This document shows positions 51,116-61,516 of a stretch of DNA of 64,000 nucleotides, piece after piece. The number at the start of each line of letters is the position of its first letter. Position 1 is the first letter of the stretch. This DNA comes from Caulobacter sp. CCUG 60055 (GTDB lineage Bacteria > Pseudomonadota > Alphaproteobacteria > Caulobacterales > Caulobacteraceae): positions 186,001 to 250,000 of the forward strand of contig NZ_PUIC01000003.1 in assembly GCF_022750545.1 (NCBI RefSeq), given 5' to 3'. The notes below the pieces were generated by a model. The model was given only the letters and a program-made list of their open reading frames with translations. It did no database searches and was not told where the DNA came from. A program made the position numbers and the translations under genes.

Positions 51116-51705
51116 AGCGGCAGCACGCCGTGGCGGCGCAGAAGGTCGAGCAAGCCCATCAGCGGCAGGCCGAGGATGGTGAAATAGTCGCCGTCGATCC
51201 GGTCGAACAGCTGCACCCCCTCGCCTTCGAGCTGGTAGCAGCCCACCGAGCTCAGGGCCGCCTCGCCGTTGCGGGCCAAGTAGCCGTCGAGGAACGCGTC
51301 GGTGAACGGGCGCATGCGCAAGGTGGCGGTGACCACCTCGCGCCAGATCGGCGCGCCGTCGCGGGCGACCACCACCGCCGAATGCAGCTTGTGGCTCCTG
51401 CCGCGGAAATCCTGCAGGCGCGCGCGGGCCTCGTCCAGGCTGGCGGCCTTGTCGTAGAGCCGGCCGTCGAGATCCAGGGTCTGGTCGGTGCCGACGACCA
51501 GGCCGGCGGTCTTTTCCGAGACCCTGACGGCCTTGATCTCGGCCAGGGCGTCGGCGATGTCGCGCGGCCCCGCGCCGTCAGCCAGCATGGCCGATTTCAC
51601 CGCGTCCTCGTCGACGCCGGCGACCCGGGTCTCGAAGGAGACGCCGGCCCCGCGCAGCAGCGCGCCGCGCGCCGCGCTCTTGGACGCCAGGATCACCGGG
51701 ATCAC
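51112..51705 (-). CDS. maf: Maf-like nucleoside triphosphate pyrophosphatase
   Basis: A 197-residue member of the Maf/Ham1 group that hydrolyses non-canonical or specific nucleoside triphosphates to keep nucleotide pools clean. [22 protein letters not shown] is the N-terminal signature with S-x-[18 protein letters not shown] carries the catalytic Asp, and [32 protein letters not shown] is the C-terminal block. The GTG start overlaps the upstream PPSR gene stop (GTGA). Confidence 0.93.
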
Positions 51706-52550
51706 GACGACAGCACCTCCACCTGCCCCTTGCCGGAGGTCAGCACATTGATCACCGCCGCCGCCGTCTCCTCGACCGAGCGGCGGGTGACGTCGATCAC
51801 CGGCCAGCCGTGCCGCTCGAACAACCGCCGGGCGCGGATGATCTCCTCGCGCACCGCCTCGGTGTCGATATAGCTGCTTTCGCGCTCCTCGCGCAGGTTG
51901 AGCAGGCGGTTGCGGCGGATCTGCAGCAGGCGGTCGGGCGAGACGGTCAGGCCGACGACCTGGGCGTGCTTGAGACTGAACAGCTGGGCCGGAGGATCGG
52001 CCCCCGGCACCAGCGGCACGTTGGCCGCCCGCACGCCGCGATGGGCCAGATAGATGCAGGTCGGCGTCTTCGACGTGCGGCTGACCCCGACCAGCACCAC
52101 GTCGGCGCGCTCCAGCTCCTGGGCGCCCTGGCCGTCGTCGTGGCCCATGGCGTAGTCGAGCGCGTCCATGCGGTTGAAATAGTCGTTGTCGAGATTGTGC
52201 TGGGCGCCGACCCGGGTGGACAGCGAGGCGCCGAGATAGCGGGACAGGGCCGAGACCAGCGGATCGAGCGCGGCGATGCAGGCCATGTCCAGGTCGCGGC
52301 AGCCCTGCTCCAGCGCCGCGCGCAACTCCTTGTCGACGATGGTGTGCAGCACCACGCCCGGCGCGCCCTCGATCTCGTGCAGCACCCGCTCCAGCTGACG
52401 GGGCGAACGCACCAGGGCGTAGATGTGCTCGATCGGCAGCACGTCGTCGAAGCGGGCGCACACGGCCTTGGCCATGGCGTTCAGCGTCTCGCCCGTGGAG
52501 TCGGAGACGAGATGGACATGGAAATAGGTCGCGAAGCGCGCGGCGGTCAT
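51702..52550 (-). CDS. Pyruvate, phosphate dikinase regulatory protein (kinase/pyrophosphorylase, DUF299)
   Basis: A 282-residue bifunctional regulator that inactivates PPDK by ADP-dependent phosphorylation and reactivates it by phosphate-dependent pyrophosphate release. HVHLVSDSTGETLNAMAKAV and the P-loop VLVGVSRTSKTPTCIYLA are intact, and IDVTRRSVEETAAAVI closes the protein. It is the first gene left of the origin and reads away from it. In Caulobacter the same gene type (RP001) flanks the origin opposite hemE, which supports the origin call. Confidence 0.95.
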   Translation of the reverse strand: MTAARFATYFHVHLVSDSTGETLNAMAKAVCARFDDVLPIEHIYALVRSPRQLERVLHEIEGAPGVVLHTIVDKELRAALEQGCRDLDMACIAALDPLVSALSRYLGASLSTRVGAQHNLDNDYFNRMDALDYAMGHDDGQGAQELERADVVLVGVSRTSKTPTCIYLAHRGVRAANVPLVPGADPPAQLFSLKHAQVVGLTVSPDRLLQIRRNRLLNLREERESSYIDTEAVREEIIRARRLFERHGWPVIDVTRRSVEETAAAVINVLTSGKGQVEVLSS

Positions 52551-52632
52551 CGCGCCATTGTTTCCCGCGTGGCGGGCCCGATGTCCATGGCCGATCGGCC
52601 GATCATGGTTTCCGGAGCCTGTGGAAGCATCG

Positions 52633-52647
52633 TTAACTCCGTCTTAA
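52633..52647. promoter_or_regulatory. CtrA binding site in the origin
   Basis: TTAACTCCGTCTTAA is a perfect TTAA-N7-TTAA match. CtrA bound at the origin blocks initiation in swarmer-type cells of Caulobacterales. Confidence 0.75.
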
Positions 52648-52842
52648 CCCTTGTCGGGCGAATTGGACGAAACCTGGGATGGAAACGTCCCGGTCGCGGC
52701 CCGCCAGGGCCGACGGTGGAGAACGACCCGGTTCGACCGGCGGTCGTCCCCATGCCCGATCCCATTGTGGATTCCTGTCGCCCGACGGCTTGGCCGGCGC
52801 GGGGGAAAAGTCTATGACTCGCTGGTCCGCCCTCCGACCGCG

Positions 52843-52857
52843 TTAAGAATTCATTAA
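52843..52857. promoter_or_regulatory. CtrA binding site in the origin
   Basis: TTAAGAATTCATTAA is a second perfect TTAA-N7-TTAA match, 21 bp before the adjacent DnaA-box-like nonamers, so occupancy could compete with DnaA. Confidence 0.75.
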
Positions 52858-52877
52858 TGATTTCGGGTGGTTGAGAG

Positions 52878-52895
52878 TTGTCCACGTCATCCACA
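52878..52895. promoter_or_regulatory. Abutting DnaA-box-like nonamers
   Basis: TTGTCCACG (7 of 9 to TTATCCACA) is immediately followed by TCATCCACA (8 of 9), both in the same orientation. Likely DnaA-binding cluster of the origin. Confidence 0.65.
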
Positions 52896-53001
52896 GACGC
52901 CTTCGCTCAACAGGGAAAGCCTCGGTGCGACAAGGGGAAAGCCTGCGTATGACCGGGCCGCGCCGACCAGTCATCCCCACGGCGCCCTGGTCCAACCTCT
53001 T

Positions 53002-53040
53002 CCTCCTCAATATTCTTATTAATCTTTTATTTAAGAGTTG
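53002..53040. other. AT-rich candidate DNA unwinding element
   Basis: In a strongly GC-rich region, this 39-bp stretch is mostly A and T and includes TTAA at 53019 and 53031 with 8 bp between, one base off CtrA spacing. It lies on the hemE side of the DnaA-type boxes, as expected for a duplex-opening site. Confidence 0.55.
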
Positions 53041-53115
53041 GTTCGGGGCGGGGAGGACAAAAGGACCGATCAAGCGGGCTTGAGCCTTCGGGCTGGAGCG
53101 TCTTTAAGGACGGCC

Positions 53116-54156
53116 ATGACGACGCCCTCTCCCGCGCCCGCCCGCCCCGCCTTGCTGCGCGTCCTGGCGGGCGAGACCCTCAAGCGGCCGCCGGTCTGGT
53201 TCATGCGCCAGGCGGGGCGCAGTCTTCCGGAATACCGGGCTTTGCGGGCCAAGGCCCCGGACTTCATTTCGTTCTGCCTCGATCCGGCGATGGCGGCCGA
53301 GGCGACCTTGCAGCCGATGCGGCGGTTCCCGTTCGACGCGGCCATCGTCTTCGCCGACATCCTGCTGATCCCCCGCGCCCTGGGCCAGGACGTCTGGTTC
53401 GAGACGGGCGAGGGCCCCAAGCTCGGGCCGCTGCCCGACATCGGCCGGCTGGCCGACAATGTCGAGGCCTCGGTCGAGCGGCTGTCCCCGGTGGGCGAGA
53501 CCTTGTCGCGGGTGCGCGCGGCGCTGGAGCCTGAGCGGGCCCTGATCGGCTTCGCCGGGGGGCCGTGGACGGTGGCGACCTATATGATCGAGGGCGGCTC
53601 CAGCGATCGCAGCCGGGCGCGGACCTTCGCCTACGAGCACGCCGACAGGCTGGACGCCCTGATCGAGGTGCTGGTCGAGGCCACCACGCGCTATCTGGTC
53701 ATGCAGGCCGGCGCCGGCGCCCAGGCGCTCAAGCTGTTCGAATCCTGGGCCGAAGGGCTTTCCGAGGACCTGTTCGAGCGCCTGGTGGCGCGGCCGCACG
53801 CCGAGATCGTCCGCCGGCTGCGCTTGGCCAGGGTGACGGCGCCGGTGATCGGTTTCCCGCGCGGCGCCGGCGGCCTGGTCGAGACCTACGCCGGGACGGT
53901 CGACGTCCAGGCGGTGGCGCTGGACGTCCAGGCCCCGGCGGCCCTGGGCCGGCGCATCCAGGCGGGCAAGGCCATCCAGGGCGCCCTCGATCCGCTGCTG
54001 CTGCGCGCCGGCGGCGCTGCGCTGGATCGCCGGGTCGATCAGCTTCTGGAGCAATGGGGCCAGGCGCCGTACATCTTCAATCTGGGGCACGGCGTTCTGC
54101 CGGACACCCCCATCGCCCATATCGAGCAGACGCTCGCCCGGGTGGTTCGGGACTGA
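53116..54156 (+). CDS. hemE: Uroporphyrinogen decarboxylase
   Basis: Decarboxylates uroporphyrinogen III to coproporphyrinogen III. The 346-residue protein starts with the family signature PPVWFMRQAGRSLPEYRALR, has VFADILLIPRALG with the catalytic Asp, GFAGGPWTVATYMIEG, and ends YIFNLGHGVLPDTPIAHIEQTL. ATG 53116 has TAAGGA upstream; the frame extends 26 codons farther into the origin without coding character. It leads hemE-hemH-hemJ and is the classic origin-flanking gene of Caulobacter. Confidence 0.97.
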   Translation: MTTPSPAPARPALLRVLAGETLKRPPVWFMRQAGRSLPEYRALRAKAPDFISFCLDPAMAAEATLQPMRRFPFDAAIVFADILLIPRALGQDVWFETGEGPKLGPLPDIGRLADNVEASVERLSPVGETLSRVRAALEPERALIGFAGGPWTVATYMIEGGSSDRSRARTFAYEHADRLDALIEVLVEATTRYLVMQAGAGAQALKLFESWAEGLSEDLFERLVARPHAEIVRRLRLARVTAPVIGFPRGAGGLVETYAGTVDVQAVALDVQAPAALGRRIQAGKAIQGALDPLLLRAGGAALDRRVDQLLEQWGQAPYIFNLGHGVLPDTPIAHIEQTLARVVRD

Positions 54157-61452: not shown

Positions 61453-61468
61453 TGTTTCACGTGAAACA
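61453..61468. other. parS: parS centromere site 1
   Basis: TGTTTCACGTGAAACA is a perfect 16-bp parS palindrome, the ParB/Spo0J binding site for chromosome segregation. It lies 6 bp after the mnmE stop. Confidence 0.96.
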
Positions 61469-61500: not shown

Positions 61501-61516
61501 TGTTTCACGTGAAACA
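61501..61516. other. parS: parS centromere site 2
   Basis: A second identical TGTTTCACGTGAAACA, 48 bp centre-to-centre from the first. Together they lie about 8.6 kb from the proposed origin. Confidence 0.96.

Follow-up and report, generated by a model that had tools for sequence, protein, structure and literature searches.

A Caulobacteraceae replication origin orthologous to Cori, with a candidate derived DnaA-trio array beside its AT-rich stretch

The intergenic region between PPPase and hemE

The window is a stretch of 64,000 nucleotides (C3:186001–250000) from contig C3 (551,400 bases) of a 4.09 Mb draft genome, which is assembled in 27 contigs, is an estimated 99.99% complete and is the sole member of its genus among the genomes compared. 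Within it, an intergenic region lies between two divergent genes, and positions below are those of the window unless C3 is named.

51702–52550, minus strand: boundary gene for PPPase (DUF299, COG1806), matching PF03618 Kinase-PPPase with E=1e-92
52551–53115, unstranded: candidate chromosomal replication origin, flanked by the divergently transcribed PPPase (DUF299) and hemE genes
53080–53108, plus strand: candidate hemE promoter TTGAGC-N17-TTTAAG, directly upstream of the hemE ATG and kept in the alignment of relatives
53116–54156, plus strand: boundary gene hemE (uroporphyrinogen decarboxylase), matching PF01208 with E=4e-97; ATG at 53116

The profile matches bear out the gene context named in the initial annotation, with PF03618 on the minus strand on one side and PF01208 on the plus strand on the other, and so locate the region between hemE and COG1806 (DUF299), as a Cori-type origin requires. 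The origin of Caulobacter crescentus maps between the same two genes and contains CtrA, DnaA and integration host factor (IHF) sites (PMC1914354). On the hemE side, the promoter-like TTGAGC-N17-TTTAAG is conserved among relatives and ends 7 bases ahead of the ATG, and the hemE message may therefore be nearly leaderless.

CtrA sites and their spacing in the family

Three predicted CtrA sites lie in the region; we name them a, b and d.

52633–52647, unstranded: CtrA site a, TTAACTCCGTCTTAA, a perfect TTAA-N7-TTAA
52843–52857, unstranded: CtrA site b, TTAAGAATTCATTAA, a perfect N7 site, identical to the matching site in the relatives G135 and L138
53019–53034, unstranded: CtrA site d, TTAATCTTTTATTTAA, N8 here and N7 at the equivalent place in relatives

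Both the two perfect boxes and the N8-spaced one had been proposed from the letters alone, and all three are present. The perfect boxes at 52633 and 52843 are the only two of their kind in the window and account for two of the eleven in the whole genome; against the 0.001 expected from a Markov-shuffled copy of the region, they are above chance. Site d carries one inserted base relative to its counterparts and still matches the N7 form with one mismatch. The genome encodes a CtrA ortholog, 85% identical to a C. crescentus query sequence, and also has genes for GcrA and DnaA.

For comparison, orthologous PPPase–hemE intergenic regions were taken from Caulobacteraceae genomes, giving 94 distinct family sequences. 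In these, the three boxes correspond to conserved sites: at no more than one mismatch, site a is found in 63/94 origins, site b in 77/94 and site d in 30/94, as against about 2–3% of shuffles. The distances between them are also shared. Sites a and b, 210 bp apart here, are separated by 206–212 bp in 21 family origins (the window included) and in relatives usually by 206–211 bp, and the distance from b to d, 176 bp here, is mostly 170–176 bp in relatives that have both sites.

The number of perfect sites is far less constant, with 0, 1, 2, 3 and 4 perfect N7 sites found in 19, 31, 30, 11 and 3 family origins, respectively. Four are present in G135, a complete, Caulobacter-type and presumably C. 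crescentus-like genome whose record starts inside the origin and whose site b is identical to that of the window. The suggestion that CtrA control might be leaner here thus holds against C. crescentus, but it is not distinctive, because two perfect sites are typical of a family that ranges from none to four. An alternative CtrA spacing of about 107–109 bp occurs in part of the family (L031, L037, L141 and L159 among others), and several of the loci that have it are labelled Phenylobacterium or are unplaced. This second arrangement suggests turnover of CtrA sites within the family. In genus g2, the origins L116 and L117 are without perfect a and b sites; close to hemE, both carry a TTAA pair with N8 spacing, whose register differs from that of the window.

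DnaA boxes and the AT-rich stretch

Taking as DnaA-like any nonamer with at most two mismatches to TTATCCACA, the region holds five where 0.77 are expected (P about 0.0007), the densest cluster of the window. The elements in and around this cluster are as follows.

52620–52628, minus strand: DnaA-box-like nonamer GCTTCCACA, just upstream of site a, with the core TCCACA retained
52747–52752, plus strand: W-box-type core TCCCCA in the interval from site a to site b, conserved in the alignment
52766–52774, minus strand: DnaA-like nonamer GAATCCACA, two mismatches to TTATCCACA
52878–52895, plus strand: abutting DnaA-like nonamers TTGTCCACG and TCATCCACA, a family-conserved arrangement
52971–52979, plus strand: DnaA-like box TCATCCCCA beside the unwinding region, two mismatches to TTATCCACA
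52980–52992, plus strand: GC-rich spacer of 13 bp, separating the DnaA box from the period-3 element
52993–53010, plus strand: period-3 element CAA CCT CTT CCT CCT CAA, candidate derived DnaA-trios (3′-G..-5′ on the other strand)
52991–53040, unstranded: AT-richest 50-mer of the window and candidate DNA unwinding element, 70% AT, overlapping the period-3 element

The abutting nonamers noticed at the outset, TTGTCCACG followed directly by TCATCCACA, are present, and 87/94 family origins have a matrix match to them. The AT-rich stretch, too, proved to be the most AT-rich 50-mer in a window that is 72% GC overall. At the other end of the region, the alignment places GCTTCCACA at the position taken in Caulobacter relatives by the G-box TGATCCACA, and CCTGTGGA (at no more than one mismatch) adjoins site a in 27/39 origins in which that site is perfect. 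One further signal fell away: a CcrM site had been counted among the marks of an origin, but GANTC is not enriched in the region (2 observed against 3.1 expected), and at this chance-level count the point carries no weight. Nor did the family alignment show site c, at which IHF and CtrA sites coincide in C. crescentus.

Read from PPPase to hemE, the aligned representatives of the family share a common order. It begins with CCTGTGGA and CtrA site a; CtrA site b and the two abutting DnaA-like nonamers come next, and are succeeded by a DnaA-like box, the GC-rich spacer and the period-3 element, after which come AT-rich DNA and CtrA site d. The motifs CTTGAGC and TTTAA stand right before hemE.

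Segregation sites and strand asymmetry around the region

Two further features lie on the hemE side of the region.

61453–61468, unstranded: parS TGTTTCACGTGAAACA, perfect, an origin-proximal segregation marker
61501–61516, unstranded: parS TGTTTCACGTGAAACA, perfect, an origin-proximal segregation marker

They are the only two perfect parS sites of the genome and lie 8.4 kb from the origin region. The pair is spaced 48 bp apart, with the mnmE reading frame on one side and that of mnmG on the other.

The initial annotation had tied its reading to the place of the GC-skew minimum over the complete genome. As the chromosome is not closed in this draft, skew was computed over stretches of contig C3 only, on which the locus lies at 238.8 kb. 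The best GC-skew split falls at C3:197–232 kb, varying with window size, and the cumulative curve reaches its minimum near 200 kb, at a distance of about 39 kb from the locus. The polarity of the GGGNAGGG octamer switches at C3:256.8–260.9 kb (0/2000 permutations), about 18–22 kb from the locus and on the opposite side to the skew minimum. The switches therefore bracket the locus, and with the minimum near 200 kb they do so without pinpointing it.

The dnaA gene is found at C3:99711–99917, 139 kb from the origin region rather than about 6–8 kb. Across relatives this distance varies between about 6 kb and more than 400 kb, with dnaA and PPPase separated by tens to hundreds of kb in G137, G140 and G018 and by about 6 kb in G135. 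Because dnaA is also distant in several relatives, its position here is not evidence against an origin.

Together, the gene context, the parS pair, the strand-asymmetry switches and the comparative anatomy (orthologous order and spacing in about 94 origins) agree. On these four lines, to which the DnaA-box cluster adds, we regard the region, with high confidence, as the chromosomal replication origin of this Caulobacteraceae bacterium and the ortholog of C. crescentus Cori, as the initial annotation had proposed.

A period-3 element next to the DnaA box

One element of the region, shared across the family, was less to be expected. The matrix of the block that holds the DnaA-like box showed C at every third position past the box and the spacer, with low conservation between. 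Since this first matrix had included the period-3 element itself, a second alignment was anchored on nothing but the box and spacer, and the columns downstream of them were then read. The period-3 positions again stood out, with C at frequencies of 0.73, 0.82, 0.82 and 0.74 as against 0.15–0.50 in the columns between; a few of the realigned sequences landed on the abutting-nonamer block instead, which would dilute the signal. Runs of at least five C-first triplets occur in 39/92 origins in the conserved frame and in 0–2/92 in four other frames.

A three-base repeat at this place, by the presumed melting site, looks like an eroded form of a known DNA-opening signal. The rule given for the basal unwinding system calls for at least three consecutive 3′-NAN-5′ triplets, that is, with a middle adenine (PMC8287927), and the criterion we used for that system was that a DnaA box with at most two mismatches to TTATCCACA should lie no more than 16 bp from the trios. 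In the window, TCATCCCCA has two mismatches and lies 13 bp from the first C-first triplet. By contrast, a run of three NTN triplets, as the trio rule would read on this strand, is absent from the conserved C-first frame of the window, and only 16/92 family origins have one in that frame. Another frame of the window holds a four-triplet NTN run, CTC TTC CTC CTC, at 17 bp from the box, one base past the limit. The authors of the rule themselves suspect that deviant trios without the middle adenine exist (PMC8287927).

Outside Caulobacteraceae, CTA-rich runs occur at the equivalent place in some origins. With a scoring that favoured CTA, 5/15 loci tested from other families of the order have trios at a shuffle P≤0.02 (L052, L056, L066, L069 and L085), and canonical trios fail the shuffle control at the other 10/15. 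Many hemE genes of the same order do not adjoin a recognisable origin, and for this reason the support that these runs lend to a trio reading is partial and suggestive. We tentatively propose that Caulobacteraceae carry a derived trio array whose conserved base is the first one (G on the bound strand) and not the middle adenine. The array would lie between a DnaA box and AT-rich DNA in which a CtrA site is also found, and CtrA could thereby act directly as a block to unwinding. Should the period-3 element function as a variant of the DnaA-trios, the middle adenine would not be universally required, a possibility raised in PMC8287927, and CtrA would be placed directly at the melting site.

Discussion

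How such an origin might be controlled can be sketched by analogy. DnaA would be loosely held on weak boxes and assemble at the box at 52971–52979, from which it would spread across the period-3 element into the AT-rich DNA at 52991–53040; this stretch would then melt and allow helicase loading. Phosphorylated CtrA at a, b and probably the off-register d would cover or abut the melting region as well as the DnaA boxes, thereby excluding DnaA and blocking initiation in the non-replicating cell type. We infer binding, competition, unwinding and cell-cycle timing alike from work on C. crescentus (PMC4468827; PMC4285127), for which steric exclusion of DnaA by CtrA has been put forward (PMC4468827).

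Other readings of the same features deserve weighing. The region might be nothing but the divergent promoter region of PPPase and hemE, its CtrA sites serving transcription, with the true origin elsewhere, for example near dnaA at C3:99.7 kb. The 139 kb that separate the locus from dnaA, a skew minimum that is not exactly at the locus and the conserved promoter-like motif upstream of hemE would suit such a reading, which we nevertheless consider highly improbable: the parS pair lies 8.4 kb away, the GGGNAGGG and skew switches fall near 197–261 kb and not near 100 kb, the region itself contains a DnaA-box cluster and an AT-rich stretch, and its ortholog is the experimentally mapped origin of C. 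crescentus (PMC1914354). An origin it may be, and yet one with weakened CtrA control, in which c and e are either missing or degenerate, d is off register and timing is left mostly to DnaA. Site d is indeed N8 where relatives have N7, there are two perfect sites against the four of G135, and in C. crescentus replication timing was only mildly perturbed when all five sites were mutated (PMC4468827). We think it unlikely all the same, given that two perfect sites are a common state in the family, that d fits the N7 form at one mismatch, and that a and b are perfect and conserved in spacing.

A different explanation concerns the DNA between a and b, whose length of 206–212 bp could reflect a gene for a non-coding RNA like CcnA, with a as its promoter box and b at the gene end. 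C. crescentus CcnA is 182 nt long, and its two CtrA boxes stand at −23 and at the very end (PMC8959179); this geometry agrees with a spacing of about 209 bp, and 21 diverged origins have preserved the spacing. Against it, the sequence between a and b is poorly conserved, the interval folds no better than its shuffles (z about −0.4 and −0.1) and has no Rfam match, and the position of ccnA within this interval is itself deduced from the published geometry. We hold a CcnA-like gene as conceivable and somewhat doubtful; a structured RNA of this kind, which neither folding nor Rfam supports, was set aside. That the distance is fixed despite a poorly conserved interval is an observation in its own right, and may mark a CcnA-like transcript.

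The origin itself was to be expected from its gene context, and our preferred reading, a Cori ortholog, extends the Cori-type set by one genus. Constant across that set are the boundary genes, the tandem DnaA nonamers and the box, spacer and period-3 element, whereas the number and spacing of the CtrA sites and the register of site d turn over. Other Caulobacteraceae origins resemble the window in their boundary genes, in the tandem nonamers after b and in the succession of box, GC-rich spacer, period-3 element and AT-rich DNA, and depart from it in the number and placement of CtrA sites, many having a spacing of about 107–109 bp in place of about 209 bp, and in that the d site of the window is N8.

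With C. crescentus Cori the region shares the COG1806/DUF299–hemE setting, TTAA-N7-TTAA boxes beside DnaA boxes, TCCCCA cores in weak boxes, an AT-rich stretch near hemE and parS nearby. The two differ in that the window has two perfect CtrA boxes and one N8 box where Cori has five footprinted sites, in a G-box-like nonamer altered to GCTTCCACA, in a dual site c that is not seen here and in a dnaA gene 139 kb away. The basal unwinding system of Bacillus subtilis and others has the same succession of a DnaA box, a short GC-rich spacer, a trinucleotide repeat in the same orientation and AT-rich DNA; the Caulobacteraceae triplets keep their first position (C here, G on the opposite strand), and are often without the middle adenine that the published rule calls for.
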